Below, piece by piece: positions 16,635 through 60,690 of a DNA stretch of 64,000 nt. Position numbers and translations under genes: made by a program. The notes beneath the pieces were generated by a model that saw only the letters and a list, made by a program, of their open reading frames with translations, was not told the origin of the DNA and searched no databases. The DNA is from Atrina japonica (Eukaryota; Mollusca; Bivalvia; Pterioida; Pinnidae). The number at the start of each line of letters is the position of its first letter. Positions within the stretch are counted from its first letter, which is position 1. The DNA lies in NCBI GenBank assembly GCA_030159075.1, contig BROG01000449.1, forward strand, positions 124,001 to 188,000. Reading direction: 5' to 3'.

Positions 16635-17530
16635 AAAGCAATAAACTAGTCACATTAAAGTAGCCGCTAAACTAACAACATTAACTGGCCACATTAAAGT
16701 AGCCACATTTAAGTAGCCACTAAACTATCCACATTAAAGTAGTTACTGTAAACTAGTTAATTTAAGTAGCCACTTAAACTTTAGTAGTTACACATTAAAC
16801 TATCCAAATTACTATATCCATATTAAATTAGCAACATATAAGTAGCATCTGAACTAGTCACATTAAACTAGCCACATTAAACTAGCCTTATTAAAGTGTT
16901 TTAAAAAAACTTGCCGTATTTAAGTAGCTATTTAAATAGCCATTAAACTAGCCACATTAATGTATCCACATTTATGTAGCCACATTAAACTAACCACATT
17001 GAAGTAGTCTCATTTAAGTAGCCACTAGACTAGCCATATTGAAGTATCCTCATTAAATTAGGCACATTTAAATAGCCACAAAACTAGTCACATTAAACTA
17101 GTCACATTTAAATATCCAGATTAGCCACATTTAAGTAGCCACTAAATTAGCCACATTAAAGTATCACATTAAATTAACCACATTAAAGTAAGAACTGTAG
17201 CCACTTAACTAGCTGCATTAAACTAGCCACATTAAAGTATCCATATATAATTAGCCACATATAAGTAGCCACTTAACTAGCCACATTTAAGAAGATACTT
17301 AAGTAGCCACTAAACTAGCCACATTAAACTAGCCACACTAAAATAACCACATTCAACTCTCCACATTAATATATCCACATTTAATTAGCCACATTTAAGT
17401 AACCATTAAACTAGTATTTTTTAACTAGCAACATTAAAGTATCACATTAAATTAGCACATTAAAGTAGCAACTGTAGCCACTTAACTAGCCTCATTAAAC
17501 TAGCTACATTAAAGTACCCACATTTTATTT
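16635..17530. repeat. Short-period satellite, 12-16 bp units
   Basis: Variants of ACTAGCCACATTAAAGT and GTAGCCACATTTAAGTAG are repeated with irregular spacing over about 0.9 kb. No long frame is open across it. Confidence 0.9.
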
Positions 17531-17574
17531 CTGCATATGTATTTTTTGTTGTTGTGTCATGTTTTGTGTTGAAG

Positions 17575-20140
17575 CACTATCCAAATTCCAGTGTTACATT
17601 GTTACCTGACGACAGTGTTACAGTGTTACCTGACAACAGTGTTACAGTGTTACCTGATTACTTACATGATAACAGTGTTACAGAGTTACCTGATGACTTA
17701 CCTAATGACAGTGTTACAGTGTTACCTGATGACTTACCTAATGACAGTGTTATATTTACCTGTACTATGATAACAGTGTTACAGAGTTGTGATGACTTAC
17801 CTAATGACATGTTATAGTGTTACCTGAAGCACTTACCTAATGACAGTGTAATAGTGTTACCTGATGACTTACCTAATGACAGTGTTATAGTGTTACAGTG
17901 TTACTTACTGACAGTGTTATAGTGTTACCTGATTACTCACATGATAACAGTGTTATAGTGTTACCTGATGACTTACCTAATGACAGTGTTACAGTGTTAC
18001 CTGATGACTTACCTAATGACAGTGTTATAGTGTTACCTGATTACTCACATGATAACAGTGTTACAGAGTTACCTGATGACTTACCTAATGACAGTGTTAT
18101 AGTGTTACCTGATGACTTACATGATAACAGTGTTACAGTTTCACCTGATGACTTACCTAATGACAGTGTTATAGTGTTACCTGATGACTTAATGACAATG
18201 TTATAGTGTTACCTGATGACTTACCTAATGACAGTGTTACAGTGTTACCTGATGACTTACCTAATGACAATGTTATAGTGTTACCTGATGACTTACCTAA
18301 TGACAGTGTTATAGTGTTACCTGATGACTTACCCAATGACAGTGTTACAGTGTTACCTGATGACTTACCTAATGACAGTGTTACAGAGTTACATGATGAT
18401 GACCTAATGACAGTGTTATAGTGTTACAGTGATGACTTACCCAAGACAGACTTTACCTGATGACTTACCTAATGACAGTGTTACAGTGTTACCTGATGAC
18501 TTACCTAATGACAGTGTTACAGTGTTACCTGATGACTTACCTAATGACAGTGTTATAGTGTTACCTGATGACTTACCTAATGACAGTGTTACAGAGTTAC
18601 CTGTGTTACCTAGACAATGTTACCTGTGTTACCTGATGACTTACCTAATGACAGTGTTATAGTGTTACCTGATTACTTACATGATAACAGTGTTACAGTT
18701 TCACCTGATGACTTACCTAATGACAGTGTTACAGTGTTACCTGATGACTTACATAATGACAGTGGTATAGTGTTACCTGATGACTTACCTAATGACAGTA
18801 TTATAGTGTTACCTGATGACTTACCTAATGACAGTGTTACAGAGTTACAGTGACTTACCTAATGATAGTGTTTATAGTGTTGGCTGATACTCACATGTTA
18901 ACAGTGTTACAGTGTTACCTGATGACTTACCTAATGACAATGGCAGTGTTACCTGATGTTACCTGATCAGTGTTTTACCTGATAACAGTACTAGTGTTAC
19001 CTGATGATAGCTAAATGCCAGTGTTACCTGATGACTTAATTGTTGACAGCATTATAGTGTTACCAGATGACAAGGTACAGTATTACCTGATCACAGCATT
19101 TCAATGTTACCTGATGATAATGTTAGTGTTACCTGATGACTTACCTGATAATTATGTTACAGTGTTGCCTGATTACTTACCTGATGACAGTGTTATAGTG
19201 TTACCTGATGACTTACATGATGGCAGTATTAATGTTACCTGATCTTTTACTTAATGCCAGTGTTACCTGATGACTTACCTGTTGACAGCATTTCAGTTTT
19301 ACCTGATGACTTACCTGATGACAGCATTACAGTATTACCTGATGATAATGTTAGTGTTACCTGATGACTCACCTGATAACAGTGTTACAGTGTTGCCTGA
19401 TGACTTAGCTGATGACAGTGTTATAGTGTTACCTGATGACTTACATGATGGCAGTATTAATGTTAACTGATCTTTTACTTAATGCCAGTGTTACCTGGTG
19501 ACTTCCCTGTTAACAGCATTTCAATGTTACCTGATGACTTACCTGATGACAGCATTACAGTATTACCTGATGATAATGTTAGTGTTACCTGATGACTTAC
19601 CTGATAACAGTGTTACAGTGTTGCCTGATGACTTACCCGATGACAGTATTATAGTGTTACCTGATGACTTACATGATTACAGTATTAATGTTACCTGATC
19701 ATTTACTTAATGCGAGTGTTACCTGATGACTTACCTGTTGACAGCATTTCAGTGTTACCTGATGACAATGTTAGTGTTACTGATGACTTACCTGATGACA
19801 GTGTTACCTGATGACATACCTGACAGTGTTGCAGTGTTACCTGATGACTTACCTGATGTCAGTGGTACAGTCTTACCTGATGGCTTACCCGATGACAGTC
19901 TTACCTGATGACTTACCTGGTGAAAGTGTTACATGATGACTTATCTGATGACAGTGTTGCAGTGTTACCTGAGTGCTTACATGATGACATTGTTACCTGA
20001 TGACTTACCTGATGACAATGTTACAGTGTTACCTGATGACTTATCTGATGACAGTGTTATAGTCTCACCTGATGACATACCTGATGACAGTGTTACAGTG
20101 TTACCTGATGACTTACCTGTGTTACCTGATGACACGACAC
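17575..20140. repeat. 36-bp minisatellite with a 228-bp higher-order zone
   Basis: The core unit is GTGTTACCTGATGACTTACC plus TAATGACAGTGTTACA or a close variant; about 65-70 units. Read in one plus frame it gives a 12-residue acidic repeat (VLPDDLPNDSVT), but frames break repeatedly and there is no start or exon context. From about 19,000 to 19,910 the units form a higher-order repeat: equivalent positions recur at 19,270, 19,498 and 19,726, a 228-bp step. Confidence 0.95.
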
Positions 20141-22339: not shown

Positions 22340-23065
22340 GTTACTGCTGGGTCAGTGGTACTGTAGATAGGACAGGAACTCAGTTTACTGCTTGGTCAGG
22401 TGTATTGTAGAGAGAACAGGAACTCAGTTTACTGCTGGGTAAGCTGTAAGGCAGGAACTCAGTTTACTGCTGGGTAAGCTGTAAGGCAGGAACTCGGCTT
22501 ACTGCTGGGTCAGGTGTAAGGCAGGAACTCAGTTTACTGCTGGGTCAGATGTATTTTAAAGGGACAGGAACAGAGTTTATTGCTAGGTCAGCAGGAACTG
22601 AGTTTTCTGCTGGGTCAGTGTAAGGCAGGAACTGAGTGTACTGCTGGGTCAGTGTAAGGCAGGAACTGAGTTTTCTGCTGGGTCAGTGTAAGGCAGGAAC
22701 TGAGTTTTCTGCTGGGTCAGTGTAAGGCAGGAACTGAGTGTACTGCTGGGTCAGTGTAAGGCAGGAACTGAGTGTACTGCTGGGTCAGTGTAAGGCAGGA
22801 ACTGAGTTTACTGCTGGGTCAGTGTAAGGCAGGAACTGAGTTTTCTGCTGGGTCAGTGTAAGGCAGGAACTGAGTTTTCTGCTGGGTCAGTGTAAGGCAG
22901 GAACTGAGTGTACTGCTCTGTCAGTGTAAGGCAGGAACTGAGTGTACTGCTGGGTCAGTGTAAGGCAGGAACTGATATACTGCTCTGTCAGTGTAAGGCA
23001 GGAACTGAGTGTACTGCTGGGTCAGTGTAAGGCAGGAATTGAGTGTACTGCTGGGTCAAGGGTAT
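22340..23065. repeat. 34-bp minisatellite
   Basis: Units contain TACTGCTGGGTCAGTGTAAG then GCAGGAACTGAGTG, about 20 copies, with longer, more diverged units at both edges (GGACAGGAAC versions). No credible frame. Confidence 0.95.
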
Positions 23066-23231: not shown

Positions 23232-24112
23232 TAAGTAAGCACTGTCTGATGGTCTATATTCATGAAATAATTAATTATTTTGAGAAACCACCTGTTTTGG
23301 CTCTTGGTTTTACCTGTTGGTATGCTGATGCTGTAGACCTACTTTATTACCTGTGTCCAGTTACCTAGGTGTTCCTTTCATCCTGATGGTATATAGATGT
23401 TGTAGACCTACTTTATTACCTGTAACCTAGACACCTAGGCCTTCATTTCATCAGTGGTATGTAGGTGCTCCACAGTCACTTGGTCTACTGTATCAGTTGC
23501 CATATTTTGTGGTGTCTAAAAATTGGTCTGTACTTAATTCTAAATCATTTGATTATGTATATCCATTTATAAATCAGTGATTGACATTGAAAACAACCTA
23601 CTCATTTTGTTACAAGCTATACCATGAGTGATATAGCAGTTGTTAATTATTGATGCACATAATATGAATTATGTATGAACTTCATGTCAGTGAAAATATG
23701 AATTCAAATGAAAATTGTTTCATGGTAAATGTGATATATATCATATTATGAAATCATACTCATACTGGTTGAATTCTAATATATCATGTTTTTTTGGAAG
23801 TCTAATACCTGTTAATTAAACCTGATTATTGGTTTTCTCTGGAAATCATGATGTATTTCCAATGCATTAAGGTTGGATTAATGTGTTATGCTTGAATAAA
23901 CAAATGAATATGCATTGATTTTAGACATTATCACTGAACTGATTTTTAGGTAAAGTGCAAGTAATTATGAGTAAGAGTTGACACATGTTAAGTGCACTAC
24001 TATCGGTAGTGAGTTGAACCTGATTGTGAAACTTAATATATAAGTAACACATGATACTGATTATGGTTTTAATGATAGATATATACAAAGAAAGGTGATT
24101 GAGTCAACAAGA
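23230..24112. other. Unique AT-rich stretch with one short duplication
   Basis: At about 23,312-23,470 a segment of roughly 80 bp is present twice (GTAGACCTACTTTATTACCT ... CCTAGG ... TTTCATC). The rest shows nothing recognisable. Confidence 0.5.
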
Positions 24113-25495
24113 TTATAAAGTGCTGTATAGAGAGTTAGATTGTAAAGTGGTGTATAGAGAGTTAGATTGTAAAGTGGTGTATAGAGAGTTAGATTGTAAA
24201 GTGCTGTATAGAGAGTTAGATTGTAGTGCTTGTTAGATTGTAAAGTGCTGTATAGAGAGTTAGATTGTAAAGTGCTGTATAAGAGTGCTTGTAAAGTGCT
24301 ATAGAGAGTTAGATTGTAAAGTGCTGTATAGAGAGTTAGATTGTAAAGTGCTGTATAGAGAGTTAGATTGTAAAGTGCTGTATAGAGAGTTAGATTGTAA
24401 AGTGCTGTATAGAGAGTTAGATTGTAAAGTGGTGTATAGAGAGTTAGATTGTAAAGTGCTGTATAGAGAGTTAGATTGTAAAGTGCTGTATAGAGAGTTA
24501 GATTGTAAAGTGCTGTATAGATTTTTGTAAAGTGCTGTATAGAGAGTTAGATTGTAAAGTGCTGTATAGAGAATTAGATTGTAAAGTGCTGTATAGAGAA
24601 TTAGATTGTAAAGTGCTGTATAGAGAGTGGGAAATTGTAAAGTGCTGTATAGAGAGTGAAATTGTAAAGTGCTGTATAGAGAGTAGGATATTGTAAAGTG
24701 GTGTATAGAGAGTAAATTGTAGTGGTGTATTGAAATTAAAAGTGCTGTATAGAGAGTGAAATTGTAAAGTGCTGTATAGAGAGTAGGTAAATGCTGTATA
24801 GAGAGTTAGATGTAAAGTAGAGAGTGAATTGTATGGTGTATGGAAGTTAGATTGTGTGGTGTATGGAGAGAGTTGTAAAGTGGTATAGAGAGTTAGATTG
24901 TAAAGTGAATAGAAAGTTGATTGTAAAGTGCTGTATAGAGAGTTAGATTGTAAAGTGGCTGTATAGAGAGTTAGATTGTAAAGTGGTGTAGAGAGTTGAT
25001 TGTAAAGTGCTGTAGAGAGTTAGATTGTAGTGGTATAGAGATTAGATAAAGTGCTGTATAGTATAGATAAAGTGCTGGAGATTGATAAAGTGCTGTATAG
25101 AGAGTGGGAGATTGTAAAGTGCTGTATAGAGAGTGAAATTGTAAAGTGCTGTATAGAGAGTAGGATATTGTAAAGTACTGTATAGAGAGTGAAATTGTAA
25201 AGTGGTGTATAGAGAGTGAAATTATAAAGTGCTGTATAGAGAGTGAAATTGTAAAGTGCTGTATAGAGAGTGAGATTGTAAAGGGCTGTATAGAGAGTGG
25301 GAGATTGTAAAGGGCTGTATAGAGAGTGGGAGATTGTAAAGGGCTGTATAGAGAGTGGGAGATTGTAAAGGGCTGTATAGAGAGTGTTGTAAAGGGGGGG
25401 GGGGGCTGTAAGAGAGTGGGCTTTTGTAAACTGTACTGGGACCTTGTAAGGGCATAGAGAATGATTGTAAAGGGCTTTTCATTGTAAAGGCTGTA
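24113..25495. repeat. 27-bp minisatellite with variant and truncated units
   Basis: The main unit is GTTAGATTGTAAAGTGCTGT plus ATAGAGA. After 24,600 the units change to GTGAAATTG, GTAGGATATTG and GTGGGAGATTG versions (25-29 bp), and between about 24,700 and 25,090 many units have short internal deletions. A minus-strand frame over the 3' half is open for 177 codons but is repeat read-through. Confidence 0.95.
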
Positions 25496-30129: not shown

Positions 30130-31955
30130 ATTAAAGTGTTTTGTCCATATACATGTTGTAAAGTACAGTTGGTGTATTGTATGGTAAATTGTTGGGAAAT
30201 TGTTCCTCTCCATATACATTGTTGGTAAAGTGTTCCTCACCATATACATTGTTGGTAAATTGTTTCTCACCATAAACATTGTTGGTAAACTGTTCTACAC
30301 CATATACATTGTTGGTAAAGTGTTCTACACCATATACATTGTTGGTAAATTGTAAACACCATGTTCTAAATAGTTCCTCACCATATACATTGTTGGCAAA
30401 TTGTTCCTCACCATATACATTGTTGGTAAATTGTTCCTCAACATATACATTGTTGGTAAATTGTTCTACACAATATACATTGTTGGTAAAGTGTTCCTTA
30501 CCATATAGATTGTTAGTAAAGTGTTCTACACCATATACATAGTTGGTAAATTGTTCCTCATCATATACATTGATGGTGAATAGTTCCTCACCATATACAT
30601 TGTTGCTAAAGTGTTCTACGCCGTATACATTGTTGGTAAAGTGTTCTACACAATATACATTGTTGGTAATATACATTGTTCTACACCTCACCATATACAT
30701 ACAAATTGTTCGGCAAATTGTTGGCAAATTGTTCTACACCATATACATTGTTGGCAAATTGTTCTACACCATATACATTGTTGGCAAATTGTTCCTCACC
30801 ATATACATTGTTGGCAAATTGTTCCTCACCATATACATTGTTGGTAAAGTGTTCCTTACCATATACATTGTTGGTAAAGTGTTCCTTACCATATACATTG
30901 TTGGTAAAGTGTTCCTTACCATATACATTGTTTGTAAAGTGTTCTACACCATATACATTGTTGGTAAAGTGTTCCTTACCATATACATTGTTTGTAAAGT
31001 GTTCCTCACCATATACATTGTTGGTAAAGTATTATCCACCATATACATTGTTGGTAAAGTGTTCCTCACCATATACATTGTTGGTAAAGTATTCTACATC
31101 ATATACATTGTTGGTGAATAGTTCCTCACCATATACATTATTGCTAAAGTGTTCTACGCCGTAAGTGGTTGTTCTAACCATATGTTCCTCACCATATACA
31201 TTGTTGGTAAAGTGTTCCTCACCATATACATTGTTGGTAAATTGTTCTACACCATATACATTGTTGGCAAATTGTTCTACACCATATACATTGTTGGTTC
31301 TACACCATATACATTGTTGGCAAATTGTTCCTCACCATATACATTGTTGGCAAATTGTTCCTCACCATATACATTGTTGGTAAAGTGTTCCTTACCATAT
31401 ACATTGTTGGTAAAGTGTTCCTCACCATATACATTGTTGGTAAAGTGTTCCTTACCATATACATTGTTAGTAAAGTGTTCTACACCATATACATTGTTGG
31501 TAAAGTGTTCCTTACCATATACATTGTTGGTAAAGTGTTCCTCACCATTCTTGTTGGTAAAGTATTATCCACCATATACATTGTTGGTAAAGTGTTCCTC
31601 ACCATATACATTGTTGGTAAAGTATTATCCACCATATACATTGTTTGTAAAGTGTTCCTCACCATATACATTGTTGGTAAATAGTTCCTCACCATATACA
31701 TTGTTGCTAAAGTGTTCTATGCTGTATACATTGTTGGTAAAGTATTCTACACCATATACATTGTTGGTAAAGTGTTCCTCACCATATACATTGTTGGTAA
31801 AGTGTTCCTCACCATATACATTGTTGGTAAAGTGTTCCTCACCATATACATTGTTGGTAAAGTGTTCCTCACCATATACATTGTTGGTAAATTGTTCCTC
31901 ACCATATACAGTGTTGGTAAAGTGTTCTACACCATATACAGTGATGATAAGATGT
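30130..31955. repeat. 30-bp minisatellite
   Basis: About 60 units contain ACCATATACATTGTTGGTAA then AGTGTTCCTC, with variants GTTCTACACC, TTGTTCCTC and TATTATCC. The 30-bp period keeps many frames open on both strands for up to 312 codons (10-residue repeats such as SPYTLLVKCS). These frames have no start, signal or exon context and shift at irregular units, so they are rejected as genes. Confidence 0.96.
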
Positions 31956-43110: not shown

Positions 43111-44380
43111 CTATGCTATTCTATAGATAATACCGAGAATGTACTGTGCTGTTGTATATAGAATATTAAGACTGTACTATGCTGTTCTATAAATAGTACT
43201 GAGATTGTCTTTTATTGTACAGAATTGAATTGTATCACTTTTGCGATACTGAGATAATACTATACTGTGCATTAGATAAAAGTGAGATTATACTATGCTC
43301 TGCAGGTAATGATACTGATATTGTACTCTGCTGACCATAATATTGAGTGTATTGTGCTGTGTATACTGAGAGTGTGCTAGGCTGTGTATAAGATGATACT
43401 GAGATTATACTATGCTGTGTATACTGAGAGTGTGCTATGCTGTGTGGAAGATGATACTGAGATTATACTATGCTGTGTATACTGAGAGTGTGCTATGCTG
43501 TGTGTAAGATGATACTGAGATTATATTATGCTGTGTATACTGAGAGTGTGCTATGCTATGTGTAAGATGATACTGAGATTATACTATGCTGTGTATACTG
43601 AGAGTGTGCTATGCTGTGTGTAAGATGATACTGAGATTATACAATGCTGTGTATACTGAGAGTGTGCTATGCTATGTGTAAGATGATACTGAGATTATAC
43701 AATGCTGTGTATACTGAGAGTGTGCTATGCTGTGTGTAAGATGATACTGAGATTATACTATGCTGTGTATACTGAGAGTGTACTATGCTGTAAATAAGAT
43801 TATACTGAGAATGTACTATGCTGTGTATAAGATGTTACTGAGATTGTACTATGCTGTGTAAACTGAGATTGTTCTATGCTGTGCATCAGATGGTACTGAG
43901 ATTATACTATGCTGTGTATACTGAGAGTGTACTATGCTATGTATAAGATGATACTGAGATTATACTATGCTGTGTATACTGAGAGTGTGCTATGCTGTGT
44001 GTAAGATGATACTGAGATTATACTATGCTGTGTATACTGAGAGTGTGCTATGCTGTGTGTAAGATGATACTGAGATTATACTATGCTGTGTATACTGAGA
44101 GTGTACTATGCTGTAAATAAGATTATACTGAGATTATACTATGCTGTGTATACTGAGAGTGTACTATGCTGTAAATAAGATTATAGTGAGAATGTACTAT
44201 GCTGTGTATAAGATGTTACTGAGATTGTACTATGCTGTGTAAACTGAGATTGTTCTATGCTCTGCATCAGATGGTACTGAGATTGTACTGTGCTGTGTAT
44301 ACTGAGATTGTACTGTGCTGTGTATACTGAGATTGTAATATGCTGTGTATAAGATAATACTGAGATTGTACCATGCAAAG
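43100..44380. repeat. 58-bp minisatellite with a higher-order period of about 380 bp
   Basis: Units contain ACTGAGATTATACTATGCTG, TGTATACTGAGAGTGTGCTA and TGCTGTGTGTAAGATGAT. A distinctive run of variant units (GCTGTAAATAAGATTATA ... GTTCTATGCT ... GCATCAGATGGTACTG) occurs at about 43,791-43,905 and again at 44,172-44,285, so a block of about 380 bp was duplicated. Confidence 0.95.
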
Positions 44381-45239: not shown

Positions 45240-47140
45240 TTATAAAGTCTCAATTATGACTCAGACTTGTGACTCAGACTTACAACCTGTTATACAAAGT
45301 CTCAATTATGATGATTCATTGTCTGATTCTGTTATGTCTGACCTACATAAGTCATTGTCTGATTCTGTGATGCCTGACCCACACATCAATGTCTGATTCT
45401 GTGTTGTCTGACCTACACAAGTCATTGTCTGATTCTGTTATGTCAGACCTACATAAGTCATTGTCTGATTCTGTGATGCCTGACCCACACATCAATGTCT
45501 GATTCTGTGGTGTCTGACCTACACAAGTCATTGTCTGATTCTGTAGTGTCTGACCTACACAAGTCATTGTCTGATTCTGTGATGTCTGACCTACACAAGT
45601 CATTGTCTGATTCTGAGATGTCTGACCTACACATATAAATGTCTGATTCTGTGATGTCTGATCTACACAAGTCATTTTCTGATTCTAAGATGTCTGACCC
45701 ACACACATCAAAGTCTGATTCTGTGATGTTTGACCTACACAAGTCATTGTCTGATTCTGTGATGTCTGACCCACACATGTCATTGTCCGATTCTGAGATG
45801 TCTGACCTACACAAGTTATTGTCTGATTCTGTCTGACCTTCACACATCAATGTCTCATTCTCTGATGTCTGACCTACACAAGTCAATGTCTGATTCTGTG
45901 ATGTCTGACCCACACTAGTCTTTTTCTGATTCTGTAATGTCTGACCTACACAAGTCATTGTCTGATTCTGTGATGGCTGACCCACACATCAATGTCTGAT
46001 TCTGTGATGTTTGACCTACACAAGTCATTGTCTGATTCTGTGATGTCTGACCCACACATCAATGTCTGATTCTGTGATGTTTGACCTACACAAGTCATTT
46101 TCTGATTCTGTGATGTCTGACCTACACAAGTCATTGTCTGATTCTGTGATGTTTGACCTACATAAGTCATCGTCTGATTCTGTGTTGTCTGATCAACACA
46201 AGTCATTGTCTGATTCTGTGATGTCTGACCTACACTAGTCATTGTCTGATTCTGTGATGTCTGACATACAGTAGTCATTGTCTGATTCTGTGTGTCTGAC
46301 CCACACATCAATGTCTAATTCTTTGATATCTGACCTACACAAGTCATTGTCTGATTCTGTGATGTTTGACCTACACTAGTCATTGTCTGATTATGTGATG
46401 TCTGACCTACACAAGTCATTGTCTGATTCTGAGATGTCTGACCTATGCTAGTCATTGTCTGATTCTGTGATGTCTGACCTACACAAGTCATTGTCTGATT
46501 CTGAGATGTCTGACCTACATAAGTTATTGTCTGATTCTGTCTGACCTTCACACATCAATGTCTCATTCTGTGATGTCTGACCTACACAAGTCATTTTCTG
46601 ATTCTGAGATGTCTGACCCACACACATCAATGTCTGATTCTGTGATGTTTGACCTACAGAAGTCATTGTCTGATTCTGTGATGTCTGACCCACACAAGTC
46701 ATTGTCTGATTCTGAGATGTCTGACCTACACAAGTTATTGTCTGATTCTGTCTGACCTTCACACATCAATGTCTCATTCTCTGATGTCTGACCTACACAA
46801 GTCATTGTCTGATTCTGTGATGTCTGACCTACACAAGTTAATGTCTGATTCTTTAATGTCTGACCTACACTAGTCATTGTCTGATTCTGTAATGTCTGAC
46901 CTACACAAGTCAGTGTCTGATTCTGTGATGTCTGACCCATACATCAAAGTCTGATTCTGAGATGTCTGACCCATACATCAAAGTCTCAATCTGTGATGTC
47001 TGACCCATACATCAAAGTCTGATTCTGAGATGTCTGACCTACACTAGTCAATGTCTGATTCTGTGATGTCTGACCTACACAAGTCATTGTCTGATTCTGT
47101 GTTGTCTGACCTACACTAGTCATTGTTTGATTTTGTAATG
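45240..47140. repeat. 36-bp minisatellite
   Basis: About 50 units contain GTCTGATTCTGTGATGTCTG then ACCTACACAAGTCATT. Because the period is divisible by three, frames on both strands stay open (12-residue repeats such as TCVGQTSQNQTM on the minus strand); they are not genes. A marker variant (CTGTCTGACCTTCACACA) recurs at about 45,823, 46,528 and 46,738, showing block duplications within the array. Confidence 0.95.
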
Positions 47141-48056
47141 TCTGAACTACATAATTTCTTTTGTAATTATGTAATATCTACTAGCAATACCAATGTTATT
47201 TCAAATGTTGTGTAGGTCATGTGACTACTTGACACAATTATCCCTCAGAATCAACTGTTGTAACTGGGGATTCTTCATTGTAACCACAATGGAACTATTT
47301 CCTAGTTTTAAACAGATTGGCAATCATATACAAATAATTCATTTAATACATTTGACCTCTGTCTGACCCACAACAAAGGTATACTATAATTTTTCCTCAG
47401 AATCACTGTATGTTATACAGACTATGCGATTATCATAGATTTGTTAAATGACTTGGGTATACACAATATTAATGTCATTAAATTTGCTTAACCCGATACT
47501 TCCTGTATTGATAAACACCGATATTTCCTGCATTGATAATCACCGCTCTGTGCTGAACCACCTTTTGTTCCTTAAAGTATAATCGTTAATTTATATACAT
47601 TCACACAGTTTTCCATCTAGGGAAAGACTCTGGCATTTAAATTATTATCATAGAGAATGAAAATATTGAATGAAGTGCTTGTAGGTATTTCAGAATATAC
47701 AGTAAAAGTATTATTCAGAGTGAAAAAATATACAGTTAGAAACTTTTAAATAGTAAGTATTATGATTTTCATATAAAAAAAAAATGTGTATGACTTCAGA
47801 TGCCCAGTAATTAATACATTCTAAAAATATGACAAATGCAACAGTTGTAAACTATGCACAAGTGTCTGTTTCACTTTTGTAAACAATTGGATTCGTCCAG
47901 TTTTGGAAATCAATTGTGTTTGTCGAGTGTTCTAATGTTGATATGATTACATGGTTTTAAAGTTACTCCGTGAATTAAATCAAGTTTCACATGTTCCTAC
48001 ATTGTTCTGAATTGAACCGAATTTTATTTCAATGTCTGGTTCTACATTGTGTACAA
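47141..48056. other. Unique AT-rich stretch left of the DIRS element
   Basis: No gene supported. Confidence 0.4.
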
Positions 48057-48235
48057 AATGCCCCCATCATCCAAGGATCTTGGATGTGATGGATGATGGG
48101 CATTCTTGGAATAAAGCCGGAGGCTGAAAGGGTATCATATAGCATTATCGTTGTGTTACGATCGGGTTCGCCCTTCAAAGAGTTTTTTATATCACTAGTA
48201 TAAATACTCTGTTGTGCACGAGAATCCTCATCTTT
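48057..48235 (-). repeat. DIRS 3' inverted terminal repeat
   Basis: The inner part, 48,129-48,235, is the reverse complement of 52,840-52,946 with one mismatch in 107 bases. The outer 72 bases (48,057-48,128) are specific to this end and can fold (CATCATCC / GGATGATG; ATCCAAG GAT CTTGGAT). The outer part is copied inverted in the internal complementary region. Confidence 0.92.
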
Positions 48236-48310
48236 AAAAGTAGATTTGTTGTCAATCAATAATCAATGGGTGGGAAAAAAACCAACAGAATACCATTCTG
48301 GGTGGGAAGT

Positions 48311-48434
48311 ATGATACCCTTTTCAGCCTCTGGCTGTATTCCAAGAATGCCCATCATCGATCACATCCAAGATCCTTGGATGATGGGGGCATTCTTTTCA
48401 CACAGCCTTCGGCATTCAGGGTATCATATAGCAT
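48311..48434 (-). repeat. DIRS internal complementary region
   Basis: Bases 48,311-48,393 are an inverted copy of the outer 3' end (48,057 to about 48,138) with about four differences. Bases 48,390-48,434 are an exact 45-base inverted copy of the outer 5' end (52,930-52,974). The two pieces share the CATT at 48,390-48,393. In the DIRS-1 replication model this region templates completion of the cDNA ends and formation of a single-stranded circle. Confidence 0.93.
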
Positions 48435-48628
48435 CTTGAAAGTATTGACAACAAAGTCAAAAAATAAACCATGTGATTTTATTTTCATGTCGACAAATGT
48501 CAAACCAAATAAAATTAAAGTAATATCAATTATATCACTTACTCATTCCAACACAGAATGAATATATAGTAAATTATATATTCTGTATCATATTATGATA
48601 CATATATGTATATTAATACCGTCAATTC

Positions 48629-49534
48629 TCAAACATTTTGCAAAACTGTCCTGGAAAATGTATTTTCTTGTACATTTAAGTCTTTATTATAAAATGTCTG
48701 AAAAGTCTTCTCTGATTGCCAGTCACAACTTTTAAGTATTGTATTTACAGATAAACCACCTCTAGCTGCTGCAGACGCTGCTGCACCTCTAAACGAATGA
48801 GCTTTGAACTTGTCGGTATCGATACCGGCAGTATTTAGAACAATTTTTAACCACCTTGCTATTGTAGAAGTTGAAACACCTTCAAAAGTCTTAAAAGAAA
48901 TGAGCAGTCTTGAAGTCTTACGAATATTTTTCGTTACAATAATGTAATACTTCAAAATTCTACATACACAAATCTCCTTCCTTTCATATTTTTGAAACTT
49001 TATGACTGGGTTAGACCTACCGGGTCTGGAGGATTTTAACAAAACATCAAAATGAAAAGTAATAACACCAGAAGAAATACTCATATTATCTATATCCAAA
49101 GAAACCAGAGTCTGAGCTCTTCCTGCTGAAGTAAGTGCTAGCAATGCACACAGTTTTAATGTCAAAGTTTTCAGTGTTAAATAGGAAAGTGGATAAAGTT
49201 TAACTAGATAATTCAACACTTTACTTACATCCCAAGTAAAAGAATACCTTGGTAATGATGGCCTAAGGTTAAACAAACCTTTCATGAACTTATTTAACAT
49301 AACAGAATTTGAAGACCATTTTTCATTATAAAAAGCTAATGTTTGTGTGATTGTGGATTTATGTGTGTTGATCACAGAATATGATTTATTTTCCTTAAAG
49401 AGTCTAAATAGATATGCCATTAAATCTATTTCGGGGATTTTAGAGGGATCTTTCTTCCGTTGATTACACCACACAATGAACTTTCTCCAAGCAATATCAT
49501 ACTGTCTCCCAGTTGACGGTCTCCATGATGACAA
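48629..49534 (-). CDS. DIRS tyrosine recombinase (integrase)
   Basis: This enzyme should integrate the circular cDNA by site-specific strand exchange in the nucleus. The stated start is a TTG codon; the same frame stays open upstream to at least about 49,690, overlapping the end of the RNase H frame, as is normal in DIRS elements, so the true N-terminus is longer and starts inside the upstream ORF. The 301 residues shown hold an N-terminal helical DNA-binding part (STGRQYDIAWRKFIVWC) and a catalytic domain. The first catalytic Arg is in LALTSAGRAQTL (R139), the HxxR box is AHSFRG (H246, R249) and the nucleophile Tyr is in TFYNKDL (Y282), preceded by CDW. All expected residues are present and no stop interrupts the frame. 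It is the only intact gene of the element. Confidence 0.9.
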   Translation of the reverse strand: MSSWRPSTGRQYDIAWRKFIVWCNQRKKDPSKIPEIDLMAYLFRLFKENKSYSVINTHKSTITQTLAFYNEKWSSNSVMLNKFMKGLFNLRPSLPRYSFTWDVSKVLNYLVKLYPLSYLTLKTLTLKLCALLALTSAGRAQTLVSLDIDNMSISSGVITFHFDVLLKSSRPGRSNPVIKFQKYERKEICVCRILKYYIIVTKNIRKTSRLLISFKTFEGVSTSTIARWLKIVLNTAGIDTDKFKAHSFRGAAASAAARGGLSVNTILKSCDWQSEKTFQTFYNKDLNVQENTFSRTVLQNV

Positions 49535-51438
49535 GGTAACAAGTCTAGCTGACTTTGAAACTCCTTGACATTGGAGTCTATCCCAGATAAAACAGCGGAG
49601 GCTAATAACATCTTTTTTCCCAAAGGATGATTCATTCCCTCTGGGGATGTTAATAGATATTTGTGTTGTGGAAGTCTAGCTGGAAAAGACATCATTCTAG
49701 ACAATAAAAGAGGAAACCACACCTGAGTTTTCCATAAAGGAAAGACAACTAATGCTTTTGATACCTGATCAACTTTTATCTTATTTATAACACGTGACAG
49801 AAAACTAAAAGGAGGGAAAATATATGGTTCAGTATTTGACCACGAGAAGGAAAAAGCATCTACTGCCCATGCTTTACTGTCATACATCCATGAAACAAAT
49901 TTTTCTATTCTAAAGTTATAATGAGAAGCAAACAAATCTACGTCAGGTTGAAAAAACTGATCACATATTCTGTTAAATATTTCTAATTTCAATGTCCATT
50001 CCGATGAATTCAAAAAATTTCTAGAACACATGTCAGCTATAATATTTTTATCTCCAGGCAAATGTTGAGCAGTAAGATAAATACTCCTTTCTAAACACCA
50101 TTCCCATATAGATTTTGCCAAATTATCCATATCCTTTGAGGTCATGCCTCCCATATTGTTAATATATGAAATAGCTGCTGTATTATCTGATTTAACTCCT
50201 ACATGCATATTACTAAAATTTAGAAAAAAGTATTTTAAGGCCTCTCTAATTGCTAAAAGTTCAAGAAAATTTATATGGAACTGTTTTTCAGATATTGTCC
50301 ATCTCCTACTTAGTATCCCCATTGAAATTTGCACCTAGCCTCTCTAATGAGGCATCGGTCTCTATCCAAAAATCAAAATGACCATTTCTAATAACTTTGC
50401 CATTTTGAGACTCAATATTAGATAACCACCACTGAATTTCAGTTTTCGCAGCATCACTTATTGACACTTTAACATCAAAATCATTTTTGTTGGCTTTCAG
50501 AGCCCTTATTTTATCGTGTTCCATAGCTCTATAATGTAATGGGGCTGACATAATGGCAGGAAAAGTGTGCACTATTCTTCCATTAAAAGATTTGTACAAA
50601 ATCTAGACCCAGCATTTTAAATGCTAATTTTTGTATTTTGGATTTTTTTGTCGTATGGCAAATAAATCATAAATCTTTTAGTATCTATAATAAAACCAAA
50701 AAATTCTATAACATGGGAAGGTTGAAACTGTGACTTCTCTAGATTAACTAAGAAACCAAGTCTTTGGAGTTTTTCACTAATGAATTTTGTATTAACACTG
50801 CACTCCTCATAATCTTGGTGCATAATCAATGAATCGTCTATATAATATGTAGACCTGATTCCAAGGGCTCGAAAAAATGCAAAAACTGGTTTCATAATCT
50901 TGGTAAATATTCTTGGTGCTGAAGACAATCCAAAGGGAAGTACTGCAAATTCATATAAAATATTTCTCCACGTGAAACGTAAATATTTTCTGAAAATTTC
51001 ATGAATAGGTATGCTGAAATAAGCCTCTTTTAAATCTATAGAAGTTAAAAAATCATCTTTCTGGATAAGGTCCAATATCTGATTAAAACTTTCCTGCTTG
51101 AATTTTTCATATGCAACATATAAATTTAAATACCATAAATTAATAACTGGTCTACACTTTCCATTTTTCTTTGGAACAATAAATATGTTAGAAATAAACT
51201 GATTTTCAGTTGGTGTGGTAATTTGAATAGCTCCTTTCTCCAGCATACATTCAATTTCTTTATCAATTAATTCAGTATCATGAGAATTGAATGATATCTC
51301 ATTGGGTATCATATTCTGATATGGTTTGGAAATAAAATCAATTTGATAACCTTGGATTGTAGAAAGCACCCAAGAATCAGATGTCACAGTTTCCCATTCT
51401 GTTAAATGATGTCTTAAAATACCAGCATATTTAGGCAC
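49426..51438 (-). pseudogene. DIRS reverse transcriptase/RNase H polyprotein, frame-broken
   Basis: The reverse transcriptase part (50,617-51,438) shows FIVPKKNGKCRPVIN, SIDLKEAYFSIPI (D135 of this piece), LPFGLSSAP and the catalytic YIDD box (199-202). The frame then changes at least twice between about 50,590 and 50,640, where the thumb/connection region begins, continues in 50,306-50,599 (GRIVHTFPAIMSAPLHYRAME, WIETDAS with the first RNase H Asp), and changes again near 50,310-50,320. The last piece (49,426-50,334) has RRWTISEKQFHINFLELLAI (RNase H Glu), VKSDNTAAISYINNMGG (Asp), QHLPGDKNIIADMCSR and then the DLFASHYNFRIEKFVSWMYD and DAFSFSW region found after RNase H in DIRS polyproteins, described in the literature as methyltransferase-like. 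The breaks are single-base scale, several in A/T-rich runs. Confidence 0.88.
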
Positions 51439-51446
51439 CTGTAAAC

Positions 51447-52723
51447 TTACCCTAAACGATTCCTGTTGAATCGGCCTCGTCTCTGTGTGCCTTGCTGGCC
51501 TCGAGATCTGTATAAAAAATTTGCTCTACCTCTATTAGTATTATAGTTAAATCTATTTGGAGTGTATTTAAAATTTGATTTTTCAGATCCCTTGTTTGTT
51601 TGTTTTTTGTACTTGTCCATTTCAGACAGGGTCTTGAGTTTTTTCTGCAGTTCATCTCCAAAAAGGAGGGAAGTAATAGGCTGCGATGAGTTACACAGTT
51701 CTGAGTATTTATTCGGTAGATTTTTTCTTAGTAAATATCTTCTCTTTTGAGAAAGAGTAAACAGAGAACTACCCAACAATATGAGAGAAGTTTTTTAATT
51801 TCTGAAACAGAATTAGAACCCTCTGCTGATTTTTTGGTATTTAAAACTTCAGCAGCCTTAATAATGGGAACCATTCCCGCAGTGATCAATTTTTGGACTG
51901 CTTGGAGTCCAGAATCTCTTGTTTGGGCCTGTTTATTAACAATACTCCAAATCTCTGAGTTTACCTTTGGAGACACAAGAAAATTACAATTCGAGGGCCT
52001 TGGATAATTATCCAGTAATTTAGAAGTGTTGCCCTCATTCACGCAAACAAAATCAACCATTTTAGCCAGAGAGGAATCAATAGCTGTGCCAACCTTATCT
52101 TGGTTAAACCACTCAGGGACACCCCAGTCTTCCTCGTCCGGGTTAGTACTTGAGTCACAATTTTCGTTTTCCGACTCAAAATAGTCAAAAACATTAGAAT
52201 CTTCTAATGGAAAACAAGTATCTACAGACTCTCCAGGTTGAATGGTTTTATTACTATCAGAACAAAAAACAGACTGTAAATTATTTATTAAGTCATTAAT
52301 ACCCAATCTATCTTTAAATGTAGCCATTTGGCTATCTGACATATTAATAATAGCATCAGATAAATCAGGGACAGCGCCTCTACCTAAAGGTCCATGCTCA
52401 TTTTCTACTGAAGTATGCCTACTGGTATTACTACTATTTTTGGTAGGTACTTCTACTTGTTTAGTAACTGTACATGTACGTTTACCCTTTACACTTTTAG
52501 TAGTAGTGTTTGACTTATCATAAGTCTTAGTGCGTAGGTCTTCGACCTTACACCTTTTACTAGTATTAGACTGAGAAGACTGGCTTTCTTTTACTTTTAT
52601 TTTTTAATAACTTGTTTTCTGCTTTACGAACCCAGAAAAACTATCAGAGTCCGTTTCAGCAAAAATTGAGAGGACGTCGTCACTCTCATTGGCCTTTCTG
52701 TTATTTAGGTCGGTATCCGACAT
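51447..52723 (-). pseudogene. DIRS gag-like ORF1, broken by one stop and one frameshift
   Basis: The best start is the ATG at 52,723 (MSDTDLNNRKANESDDVLS). An in-frame TAA lies at 52,604-52,606, after which the same frame continues (VKESQSSQSN ...) through 52,342-51,800 (GVPEWFNQDKVGTAIDSSLA, KLLDNYPRPSN). At the A6 run of the coding strand (51,791-51,796) the frame changes by one; the other frame then carries the expected C-terminus: LGSSLFTLSQKRRYLLRKN, FGDELQKKL and a basic Arg/Gly-rich tail (NRGRANFLYRSRG, RRGRFNRNR) likely to bind RNA. There is no zinc knuckle, as usual for DIRS gag. A one-base slip at the A run, by mutation, sequencing error or ribosomal slippage, would explain the frame change; the phase of the run is not that of a canonical slippery heptamer. 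Confidence 0.82.
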
Positions 52724-52839
52724 GAGTTTAGACAGCGTCTACAACCAGCCAATAAAAATAATAAAACTATAACCTGAAAATAAAATTTATTCTCACCTTG
52801 TTAAACTTACCGAGCGAACCGTATGACAACGCCCGACAA

Positions 52840-52974
52840 AAAGATGAGGATTCTCGTGCACAACAGAGTATTTATACTAGTGATATAAAAAACTCTTTGA
52901 AGGGCGAACCCGATCGTAACACGACGATAATGCTATATGATACCCTGAATGCCGAAGGCTGTGTGAAAAGAATG
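52840..52974 (-). repeat. DIRS 5' inverted terminal repeat
   Basis: Bases 52,840-52,946 match the 3' repeat (106 of 107, inverted). The outer 28 bases (52,947-52,974) differ from the other end but carry a comparable GCCGAAGGC motif (the other end has GCCGGAGGC). As the upstream end for all three ORFs it should carry the promoter, but I could not identify a specific core element. Confidence 0.9.
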
Positions 52975-54615: not shown

Positions 54616-55054
54616 AAAATTTAGTTATGGCACAATACTGTAGATTGCTGTTTATCTGGTACATACCCTACCTACTTATGAAGTGAAGTGTTCTGAAGAT
54701 TCTCGCAATTGCATGCTTCAGTAAATGATATTGACTGATCAACTGGTGTTTGCACTGACAACATCAAAGAAATAAATAATATGAGATAATATCACTAGGT
54801 CTCATTGATTTTGGTTTTGATAAATCTTTCCTGGTCTAGAACAAATCACTACTCCAGTGAATGATTTGATCAGTACCGGATAAGTGAATGACCTTTTTTT
54901 GTATGGTGTGGTTTTCTTGAAACATCATTGTGAAAACTCTCCCGATCATACTAAAATATTACCAGCTTCTGGGGATGTTGCAAAATTAATGGCCCTACTG
55001 ACTCAAACCAGTGTAAATTTTCCATTGTTCTCATTTAACTTAATATTGAACCCA
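54616..55054. other. Unique AT-rich stretch
   Basis: No gene supported. Confidence 0.4.
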
Positions 55055-56575
55055 ACTTTAGTATAGAGATCCTCATGAACCTGACTTTAGTATAGAGATC
55101 CTCATAAACCTGACTTTAGTATAGAGATCCTCACGAACCTGACTTTAGTATAGAGATCCTCATAAACCTGACTTTAGTATAGAGATCCTCATAAACCTGA
55201 CTTTAGTATAGAGATCCTACGAACCTGATAGAGATCCTCACGAACCTGACTTTAGTATAGAGATCCTCACGAACCTGACTTTAGTATAGAGATCCTCATG
55301 AACCTGACTTTAGTATAGAGATCCTCATAAACCTGACTTTAGTATAGAGATCCTCATGAACCTGACTTTAGTATAGAGAGATCCTGACTTTAGTATAGAG
55401 ACCACTGACCTGACTTTAGTATAGAGATCCTCATGAACCTGACTTTAGTAAAGAGATCCTCACGAACCTGACATAGAGACCCTGACTTTAGTATAGAGAT
55501 CCTCATGAACCTGACTTTAATTAGAGTATATGAAGATCCTCATGAACCTGACTTTAGTATAGAGATCCTAATGAACCTGACTTTAGTATAGAGATCCTCA
55601 TGAACCTGACTTTAGTATAGAGATCCAAATGAACCTGACTTTAGTATAGAGATCCTCATGAACCTGACTTTAGTATAGAGATCCTCATGAACCTGACTTT
55701 AGTATAGAGATCCTCATGAACCTGACTTTAGTGTTGAGATATTCATGAACCTGACTTTAGTATAGAGATCCTCATGAACCTGACTTTAGTGTTGAGATAT
55801 TCATGAACCTGACTTTAGTATAGAGATCCTCATGAACCTGACTTTAGTGTTGAGATATTCATGAACCTGACTTTAGTATAGAGATCCTCATGACCCTGAC
55901 TTTAGTGTTGAGATATTCATGAACCTGACTTTAGTATAGAGATCCTCATGAACCTGACTTTAGTATAGAGATCCTCATGAACCTGACTTTAGTATAGAGA
56001 TCCTCATGAACCTGACTTTAGTATAGAGATCCTCATGAACCTGACTTTAGTATAGAGATCCTCATGAACCTGACTTTAGTATAGAGATCCTCATGAGCCT
56101 GACTTTAGTGTTGAGATATTCATGAACCTGACTTTAGTATAGAGATCCTCATGAACCTGACTTTAGTATAGAGATCCTCATGAACCTGACTTTAGTATAG
56201 AGATCCTCATGAGCCTGACTTTAATATAGAGATCCTCATGAACCTGACTTTAGTATAGAGATCCTCACGAACCTGACTTTAGTATAGAGATCCTCATGAG
56301 CCTGACTTTAATATAGAGATCCTCATGAACCTGACTTTAGTATAGAGATCCTCATGAGCCTGACTTTAGTATAGAGATCCTCATGAGCCTGACTTTAATA
56401 TGAGCCTGACTTTAGTATAGAGATCCTCATGAGCCTGACTTTAGTATAGAGATCCTCATGAGCCTGACTTTAATATAGAGATCCTCATGAACCTGACTTA
56501 AGTATAGAGATCCTCATGAGCCTGACTTTAATATAGAGATCCTCATGACCTGACTTTAGTATAGAGATCCTGATG
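55055..56575. repeat. 29-bp minisatellite
   Basis: About 50 units contain CATGAACCTGACTTTAGTAT then AGAGATCCT. Between about 55,725 and 55,925 a variant unit (GTGTTGAGATATT) alternates with the normal one, a 58-bp higher-order repeat. Later units carry GAGCC in place of GAACC. Confidence 0.96.
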
Positions 56576-57057
56576 TACCTGACCTAAGTACTGGTATTCC
56601 CATTAATCTGACTTTAGTACCAAAGAAACCTTTAACATGACTCACAATTTTATATCCTTATTCACCTGACATAAGTACCTGGATCCTAATTAATCTGCCT
56701 TGAGTACTGAGATATTTCTTACTGATGTGTTGATATCCTTATTAACCTGGAATACTGAAGTCCTTGTCAAACTTGAGGATATTTATAGACAATCAATGTT
56801 ACTTTGTAGTAAAGGTATGTTATTGCAATATGTCACTAGCATTCTTAGAAAGAAACACAAATGTTTCATACATGTTTGACGTGATTACAATGGATGGCTG
56901 CTTCTAATAATATGATGAGTCAATTTACCAGACAGGATGATGCTCATATATGATTTAATAATATTTAAATGAGACCAAGGATGCCAGGTAAAAGACCTGA
57001 AATTCATCATTTTCTCAGTAATATGTTGGATAAACATGATATCTCCATATTTGATAT
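56576..57057. other. Decaying edge of the 29-bp array, then unique sequence
   Basis: Up to about 56,760 degenerate CTGACTTTAGTAC/CTGACATAAGTAC-type units continue. Beyond that nothing was recognised. Confidence 0.5.
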
Positions 57058-57830: not shown

Positions 57831-59624
57831 CTCTCGTTAATACATGATAATTATACATGATTGATCCTGTCTCTGGCCTGACATGATGAATGTCAAAACA
57901 GAGATCGTAAACAGCCACAACACAGGAGGCTGATTTTGGTAATGTATCTCATTTATAATGTTAGAAATAATGTCATATAGACCTAGATTATAAACAAAAA
58001 CAATAATTTGGTTGTCACAATGGCAAAGTCAGTAAACTGTCAATTTGATGATTAAGCACGAATTGGGGATTATTTGGGGTATTCCTGAAATAAGATAGCC
58101 ATTAAAGACGAGGTTATAAATTGCTGTAAACATGGATATTTCTGTGTGTTGTTAATTATGCAATTTTCCTATGCAAACCATATGTGTGGATTATATTACA
58201 TAACTCACAATCTATTATGAGCAGTCCTGTACAAAAGGATAAATCTTAGGACAACTGTGGGATTGGTACGGTTCTGGTTATTTACAGAAAAGCTCTTCAC
58301 CGCCTATTTAGTGTAAATTTCCACATTTTACAATAATCCTACATTCAAAAAGTGAATTGAGACAGTTCCCCAAGTAATATGTTTAAGGGAAAGTTCAAGG
58401 TCTCACAGAATTAATGAAAAAATATTACGGCCAGGTAAAATAAAATTGTGTTATATATATTATTGTGTAAATTTTATTATGTAAAAGTCATATTTCTCTC
58501 CGTTTTATTCCCTCTGCTTTATTTATCAGAGTAATATTTATAATTATGTCATTTGGCAATGATTCTGTGTGGTATACAGATCACGTTAAAGATATTAGCT
58601 AATGGTGTACAGTAATACCTATAGTTAGTTTAATTATCGTCACATGTAACACTCACACTGCATCAAATGTCATTTTGACATGAGAAATCTATAATTGTAA
58701 GAAATAGGCATTAATTTTGCTTCCTTACTAAGTCATTTTTACTGATAAACGGCCATTATGATGTCTGAAGAATCAATCATACTAAGGACGACCAATTGTT
58801 TGACTTCATTGGTTAGATCAGGTCACATGTTAGAGATATTATGTAGTGATACATTCTGTATTATCTTAATTATATGTTTCTTGTATTCATTTGTGTTTCA
58901 AGTATCAAAGATTAAGACTTTACATGGTTGGAAATATCCAGTTGCCTGCTCGCATTGGCAAGTAAGAAATCGTTTCTGGCAAGTCAATTTATATAACGAA
59001 CTCACCCGTATTGTGAGTGCTGACGCCGTACTGAAAATCCGGATTCCCTTTTAATAAAGTTTCGAAAGTGATCCATTTCCTTTTATTTTTAGTTCAAAAC
59101 ACATTACAAAAACAAATAGAAACTTAAATAATTGTTTTATTGACAATTAAACATGTGTCTTTACCTCATGGCCGAAAATGTCAAAGAACACATCATGTGT
59201 TGACTGCTGATACTTGAAGTTTGTAGAGGAAATTGGAAGTCAGATGTGTAAAAAAAAAAACAGTTGGATGTGTAATAAAAGAACCAATATCGGACAGACC
59301 TGAATTTCAGGATTTGGTAAAATAATAGTAACACTATACATTGTATAAAAGTTGTAAATTCTGAATTAAATGTGAATGATAAAAGTAAGTTACTGTAAAT
59401 AAAAGTTTTAATGAAATACACAGAAATGGACAGCTATTGTTTTCATCTGATGATAGTGAAAATTTACTTTTGTAATTTATATTGATTTAAACACATAGTA
59501 GTAACATCATAAAACAGTAATGATAAAAATAGATTATAGTTATAATAATGATGCATTTACAGTTAATTTACACAGCTTACACAGGAACATTATTCACAAT
59601 ACATGTTGTTGTTTTTTATTGTTA
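57831..59624. other. Mostly unique stretch
   Basis: No gene defended. The plus frame 58,758-59,054 (98 codons) has a hydrophobic segment (TFCIILIICFLYSFVF), a possible acceptor TTTGTGTTTCAAG inside it, and an AATAAA overlapping its stop; it could be a terminal exon but lacks any domain. Confidence 0.35.
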
Positions 59625-60690
59625 AATGTGAAAAGATAGGACTATCAATGTTGCTGGTTGATCTTGATTATAAAGTATGAGCAGATTGGACTATCGATGT
59701 TGCTGGTTGATCTTGATTATAAAGTATGAGCAGATTGGACTATCAATGTTGCTGGTTGATCTTGATTATAAAGTATGAGCAGATTGGACTATCAATTTTC
59801 TTGGTTGATCTTGATTATAAAGTATGAGCAGATTGGACTATCAATGTTGCTGGTTGATCTTGATTATAAAGTATGAGCAGATTGGACTATCAATGTTGCT
59901 GATTGTTCTTTATGGTAATGTGTGAGCAGATTGGACTATCACTGTTGCTGATTGTTCTTGATTGTAATGTGTGAACAGATTGGACTATCAATGTTCTTGG
60001 TTGTTCTTGATTGTAATGTGTGAGCAGATTGGACTATCAATGTTCTTGGTTGTTCTTGATTGTAATGTGTGAGCAGATTGGACTGTCAATTTTCTTGGTT
60101 GTTCCTGATTGTAATGTGTGAGCAGATTGGACTATCAATGTTGCTGATTGTTCTTGATTGTAATGTGTGAGCAGATTGGACTATCAATTTTCTTGGTTGT
60201 TCCTGATTGTAATGTGTGAGCAGATTGGACTATCAATGTAGCTGATTGTTCTTGATTGTAATATGTGAGCAGATTGGACTGTCAATTTTCTTGGTTGTTC
60301 CTGATTGTAATGTGTGAGCAGATTGGACTATCAATGTTGCTGATTGTTCTTGATTGTAATGTGTGAGCAGATTGGACTGTCAATTTTCTTGGTTGTTCCT
60401 GATTGTAATGTGCGAGCAGATTGGACTATCAATGTTGCTGATTTTTTTTATTGTAATGTGTGAGTAGATTGGACTATCAATGTTCCTGATTGTTCTTGAT
60501 TGTAATGTGTGAGCAGATTGGACTGTCAATTTTCTTGGTTGTTCCTGATTGTAATGTGTGAGCAGATTGGACTATCAATGTTCCTGATTGTTCTTGATTG
60601 TAATGTGTGAGCAGATTGGAGTATCAATGTAGCTGATTGTTCTTGATTGTTTAGTGTGAGCAGATTGGACTATTAATGATTCTATATCCA
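59625..60690. repeat. 49-bp minisatellite
   Basis: About 21 units contain GTGAGCAGATTGGACTATCA, ATGTTGCTGATTGTTCTTG and ATTGTAATGT. The first five units are a distinct subtype (GGTTGATCTTGATTATAAAG). Between about 60,060 and 60,600 two subtypes alternate (TTTTCTTGGTTGTTCC and TGTTGCTGATTGTTC), a dimeric higher-order period of about 98 bp. Confidence 0.95.

Follow-up and report, generated by a model that had tools for sequence, protein, structure and literature searches.

We find that positions 48057-52974 of the window (the whole stretch of 64,000 nucleotides that was analysed) are almost certainly occupied by a DIRS1-like tyrosine-recombinase retrotransposon of a mollusc, probably a bivalve, which as a whole fits the model of a circle templated by an internal complementary region (ICR). 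The ICR matches the joined ends that it is expected to template, the termini are common to unlinked copies, and at three insertions a target with one AATG was used without loss or gain of bases. Seven near-full copies, with predicted termini that can be set against observed ones and with readable uninvaded sites for three insertions, thus form a natural test of the DIRS integration model, in which duplication-free integration at AAT and the match between ends and ICR can be checked base by base in one genome. The parts of the element are as follows.

48057..52974, minus strand (coding): whole DIRS1-like element, 4918 bp, with ICR-predicted boundaries common to six other near-full copies
48057..48060, no strand: AATG of the left edge, present in all near-full copies
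48057..48104, minus strand: right extension, 44 nt beyond the inverted terminal repeat (48 with the inner CATT), a near-palindrome from AATG to CATT
48101..48235, minus strand: right (3') inverted terminal repeat (ITR), with a divergent part at 48101-48128 (16/28 against the other ITR) and a conserved core at 48129-48235 (106/107)
48311..48393, minus strand: right ICR, an inverted copy of the 3' outer end with 3 substitutions and 1 indel
48390-48393, minus strand: CATT common to both ICRs, the circle junction, from the ICR overlap
48390..48434, minus strand: left ICR, which repeats the outermost 45 nt of the 5' end exactly in inverted orientation, from the repeat search
48632..49675, minus strand: tyrosine recombinase (YR), 348 aa open from stop to stop, Phage_integrase E 5.2e-8 (scanned on 48629-49534)
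49429..50334, minus strand: RNase H (RH) and Dam-like methyltransferase (MT) part of pol, from Pfam and relatives
50309..50602, minus strand: linker piece between reverse transcriptase and RNase H, in a different frame, uninterrupted in relatives P0002, P0004 and P0012
50620..51525, minus strand: reverse transcriptase (RT), Pfam RVT_1 E 1.4e-23 (scanned on 50617-51438), with YIDD
51731..52738, minus strand: gag-like reading frames, broken (52607-52738 and 51731-52603), from open reading frames
52840..52974, minus strand: left (5') ITR, beginning CATTCTTTTC on the sense strand, with an outer divergent part at 52947-52974 and a conserved core at 52840-52946
52971..52974, no strand: AATG of the right edge; the other six near-full copies have AAT followed by G (4), C (1) or T (1)

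The terminal and internal repeats were recovered by a repeat search as three pairs: I1 (48101-48235 versus 52840-52974, 135 nt, 90%), I2 (48048-48132 versus 48318-48402, 85 nt, 92%), and I3 (48390-48434 versus 52930-52974, 45 nt, 100%). As in DIRS1-like elements, the ITRs have a conserved part (106/107 identical between 48129-48235 and 52840-52946, confirming the value given in an earlier sequence-only reading) and a divergent part (16/28). That reading had also claimed an exact 45-base inverted copy of the 5' end within the ICR, and pair I3 bears this out. The 45 nt are the longest exact match between an outer end and the ICR; the maximum in 300 first-order Markov controls was 11, and the match is far beyond chance. 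A stronger claim, that the ICR equals the joined ends base for base, holds for the 5' half (45/45) but not for the other half, which has 3 substitutions and 1 indel. Aligned in reverse against both ends joined at a single AATG, 48311-48434 is identical at 121 positions, with 3 mismatches and a single 1-base gap. The two ICRs are complementary to the two ends and overlap at the circular junction, again as in DIRS1-like elements, and together they predict both element termini and the junction itself.

On the minus strand, gag-like frames are followed by RT, by RNase H with a weak Dam-like methyltransferase, and by the tyrosine recombinase. With inverted termini, ICR, and RT/RNase H/YR order all present, the DIRS-1 arrangement recognized in the earlier reading is upheld. 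The RT frame (50620-51525) contains YYIDD, in keeping with the Y(L/I)DD of DIRS1-like elements, and stops short of joining the next pol piece. An RNase H is placed after the RT, as in DIRS1-like elements, mainly by homology: RT_RNaseH reaches E 0.0051 in the window copy, under the curated cut-off, and an RNase H Pfam match at E up to 0.01 is found in 6 of 17 aligned proteins, the window's included (best 4.4e-9). The Dam-like domain is weak in the window by Pfam (Dam E 0.057); Dam was matched at E up to 0.01 in four of the 17 aligned proteins (best 4.4e-7) and PCIF1_WW in eight. A Pfam scan of the gag-like frame 51731-52603 gave no match at E up to 0.1. Across an alignment of 20 recombinases (the window's and 19 relatives), R186, R296, and Y329 are invariant and H293 nearly so; we take these four to be the catalytic residues, and the window element has the R-H-R-Y set of a DIRS1-like tyrosine recombinase. 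Named proteins among the matches listed are mostly bivalve (Mytilus, Dreissena, Ruditapes, Mercenaria, and Mya), with corals and echinoderms lower; the best identities among them are 55-60%, some over part of the query only.

Split direct repeats mark the Ngaro/PAT/VIPER group. The window element has none in place of its ITRs and ICR: its direct repeats of at least 18 nt fall into two families, ITR versus ICR and short matches, with no split-direct-repeat layout, and inverted termini and an ICR are present. A passage on Ngaro in PMC9210276 partly supports split direct repeats as the mark of this group. We thus give almost no credence to the reading of the element as a Ngaro, PAT, or VIPER type retroelement, even though PMC3266345 places these, too, among the YR-encoding elements of the DIRS order.

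The DIRS1-like assignment is supported by published anatomy. PMC3266345 (Piednoel et al. 2011) describes 28 elements with ITRs of divergent and conserved parts, extensions, and two ICRs overlapping at a short junction. The window element has the same layout, which places it among the DIRS1-like retrotransposons of molluscan type; it is a clean example and not a new kind of element. It resembles AcaDIRS1, AcaDIRS2, and LgDIRS1-3, as presented there, in gag, RT/RH/MT, YR, split ITR, single right extension, and double ICR, a likeness set by published anatomy and sizes, not by sequence identity. Against the molluscan values in the same source, its length is 4918 bp (4680-5808 bp), its ICRs are 45 + 83 nt (39-46 + 67-88), its right extension is 44 nt, or 48 counting the inner CATT (46-49), and its divergent ITR is 28 nt (30-36). 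The conserved ITR, at 107 nt, differs from the 31-36 nt of molluscan elements and the 141 nt of LgDIRS2. Four of the five molluscan rows in Table 3 of that paper have ATT termini and an AAT junction; LgDIRS2 has AAT/AAT and an ATT junction. DIRS-1 of Dictyostelium discoideum, as described in PMC5633606, is alike in its inverted terminal repeats, its ICR complementary to both ends, and its use of a YR rather than a DDE integrase. The DIRS1-2 row for the same species in Table 3 of PMC3266345 lists a TAA junction and a conserved ITR of 304 nt, in contrast to the AAT and 107 nt found here.

Sister copies were sought in the host assembly (832 Mb, 2347 contigs), where the window lies at G000:C449:124001-188000, using the right terminus and the ICR. 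This search returned 104 matches, and 40 of 51 candidates were scored, so that copy counts are lower bounds. We find at least six further near-full copies (L035-L040), 4841-4966 bp long and 92.4-96.5% identical over the element (BLAST). They share their termini with the window element. The check for equal termini in other genomic copies thus came out as anticipated, and the earlier claim that the sequence alone fixes both termini and the circle junction is well founded. The 1-kb flanks of the seven near-full copies show no cross hits among themselves; a longer left-flank stretch of L040 matches the repeat hosting L037 over 91 nt at 79%. DIRS-1, by contrast, inserts preferentially into its own copies, as cited in PMC5633606, whereas three copies here lie in other repeats. 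A further copy, L041, breaks off near element position 519 and resumes ~5.4 kb away, so that other DNA seems to have inserted into it.

The window-left edge is AATG in all ten cases: the seven near-full copies, L041, L043, and the 60-nt remnant L044. This lone remnant (L044:997-1056; G000:C855:128296-128355) consists of the right extension and the first ITR bases and starts exactly at AATG. The window-right edge is more variable, reading GAAAAGAAT and then G in five of the seven near-full copies, C in L039, and T in L040; an eighth right end, that of truncated copy L042, reads GATTG. The remaining 44 bases of the window-right terminus are unaltered in L039 as well as in L040; one substitution each is present elsewhere in the same 45-nt terminus of L035 and L038. 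As the fourth base varies while the rest of the terminus is intact, the overlap fixed by the element is most likely AAT, with a target-derived fourth base at which G is a preference. The proposed junction of AATG shared by both edges is thus sound for AAT and gives way at its last base.

The presence of AATG at both edges in five of seven near-full copies might also be read as a 4-bp target-site duplication by staggered cutting, with the element proper running from CCCCC to GAAAAG. We reject this as highly improbable. The ICR itself holds AATG between the ends, so one copy is element-borne, and in L039 and L040 the fourth base differs between left and right edges, which a duplication would not give.

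Empty sites were obtained as joined flanks of insertions matched to uninvaded repeat copies in the host assembly. For L037, at least 40 repeat copies match the joined flanks across all 224 bases; the joined flanks of L035 and L036 are likewise repeat sequence (at least 41 matches). All 32 uninvaded sites inspected (18 for L035, 2 for L036, and 12 for L037), which are paralogous repeat copies at 82-97% identity and not alleles, are ungapped and have a single tetramer: AATG in 30, AACG in one, and TATG in one. There was therefore neither duplication nor deletion at these three insertions. Their targets already held one AATG, and the lack of a target-site duplication expected of a DIRS1-like element is thus seen at three family insertions other than the window's. 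For the window copy, the search of the host assembly returned only its own two flanks; the model predicts that its uninvaded site would read TGTACAAAATGATTAATT. Among the matches listed for L038, L039, and L040, which were filled by other repeats, no empty site was present.

A second alternative is that the overlap is really 4 bp and that the C of L039 and the T of L040 are post-insertion mutations of a fixed AATG. These are the copies with the most indels, the other five near-full copies have G, the single substitutions of L035 and L038 show that the 45-nt terminus does mutate, and the targets were AATG at all three insertions with readable empty sites. Yet with the other 44 terminal bases intact, it would be a considerable coincidence for L039 and L040 each to have been hit exactly at the boundary, and published molluscan junctions are 3 bp (PMC3266345). 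We regard this alternative as unlikely and retain an AAT core with a target-derived last base.

Bases outside the core also appear to be preferred. All ten left flanks have A at position -2; at -1, eight have A, one T, and one G; G follows AAT in five of seven near-full copies. Relative to the composition around 4004 AAT sites of the window outside the element, the binomial probabilities are ~1e-4 for A at -2, 0.006 for the preference at -1, and 0.011 for G (unadjusted, with positions chosen after looking). A second DIRS family in the same genome has A at the matching -2 in 14 of 15 cases and T at -1 in 12 of 15. Its right termini have AAT at the edge in 11 of the 15 counted (L047, L051, L056, and L062 differ); this count comes from 18 loci after one ICR-like L059 row was dropped; the pattern picked up no right terminus in L053, L057, or L060. 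The wider target preference, A-W-AAT-G, is possibly new and rests on few sequences. No paper on a wider DIRS target site or a palindromic right extension was recognized in the literature searched. At least two further DIRS families in the same genome (L045-L059, L061, and L062; L060) have the junction tetramer AATG and a similar right-extension dyad.

Following the published DIRS-1 model (PMC3266345, PMC5633606), the RNA of the element would be missing the outermost sequence at each end. As cDNA is made, both ends would be templated by the ICR and brought together, giving a circle with a single AAT(G) at their joint, and the element's own tyrosine recombinase would then exchange this circle with a chromosomal A-W-AAT-(G) site. 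According to PMC5633606, circular DIRS-1 intermediates have been experimentally verified and the replication mechanism is incompletely proven.

One scan of genome contigs yielded a single relative, L001 (NZ_MPRK01000170.1, 1-3831). This contig is filed under a Solemya elarraichensis gill symbiont genome and is evidently contaminating DNA of the animal host. It is 3831 bp long, starts inside gag, and stops at the element terminus: its last bases are the CATT that its own ICR predicts for the right terminus (74/74 complementary). L001 is like the window element in domain order, ICR, right-extension dyad, and AATG junction, with 50% amino acid identity in RH/MT. Unlike in the window copy, its pol and YR frames (RT-RH-MT and YR) are open. 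Scans of viral contigs with YR, RH/MT, and RT queries and the terminal pattern found no relatives.

The right extension has a plan of its own. The DNA fold of 48057-48104 has an energy of -14.4 kcal/mol, and 1 of 500 Markov controls was as low. The right extension of L001 (42 nt counting the inner CATT) has the same plan, folded with one extra base, and 13 of 500 controls were as low; the same dyad plan appears in family 2 (L046) and in the L060 ICR, these two compared unfolded. An RNAalifold structure over the four sequences pairs 93.9% of cells, against 26.6-48.3% when slid; 7 of 500 shuffles reach 93.9%. Only two pairs are changed on both sides, and the covariation score is reached by 33 of 500 shuffles; sliding the dyad by +3 columns gives a covariation of 0.131, versus 0.098 unslid, but far fewer cells are paired. 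Conservation of the dyad is suggested on evidence that is weak in part, and is not proved. A right extension that forms a dyad bounded by AATG and CATT in four families is possibly new, and rests on few sequences.

A short asymmetric motif pair is kept in the divergent ITR parts of four elements (48101-48128 and 52947-52974 in the window, and L001, L046, and L060): the right part has GCC(G/T)GAGGC, the left part GCCTTC(A/G/T), and these are possibly recombinase-binding sites. We tentatively speculate that the right extension of molluscan DIRS elements, with its outer AATG and inner CATT, could be a recognition structure that either docks the recombinase or folds within single-stranded cDNA into a double-stranded crossover site, and that the recombinase may read A at -2, A or T at -1, AAT, and preferably G. 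We found no study of DNA recognition by a DIRS recombinase in the literature searched, which misses most subscription journals. The wider target preference and the right-extension dyad provide concrete sites for tests with purified recombinase.

The gag and pol frames of the window copy are broken; in relatives a single frame spans the positions of the pol breaks. None of the seven near-full copies has all frames open (frames of at least 90 aa, stop to stop). Because its coding frames are broken, the window copy cannot move by its own proteins. The element had been called complete, which is true of its repeats and not of its coding frames. That the breaks arose mainly from sequencing errors at homopolymers is not supported: only one of the window copy's six short (1-2 nt) indels lies beside a homopolymer of at least 5.

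The 106/107 identity of the terminal repeats had been taken to suggest a recent insertion. We reject ITR identity as proof of recency, since all seven copies have 105-107 identities in the ITR core (with extra indel columns in L039 and L040). Counting differences over 187 positions of ITR core and right terminus/ICR gives 5 for the window copy, 3 for L035, 1 for L036, 0 for L037, and 3 for L038. The window's right-terminus/ICR value in this tally is 4, from pairwise alignment, and L039 and L040 were left out for larger indels in ICR or ITR. Judged this way, none of the other four copies tallied is as old as the window copy. The published model implies that ITR identity would be a poor clock for DIRS elements, because their ITRs, unlike LTRs, are not regenerated from a single template.

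The window is also rich in long minisatellite arrays with units of about 14-58 bp, which lie at 7447-8449, 16642-20135, 22373-23058, 24110-25386, 30188-31940, 43283-44376, 45316-47151, 55047-56619, and 59608-60678.
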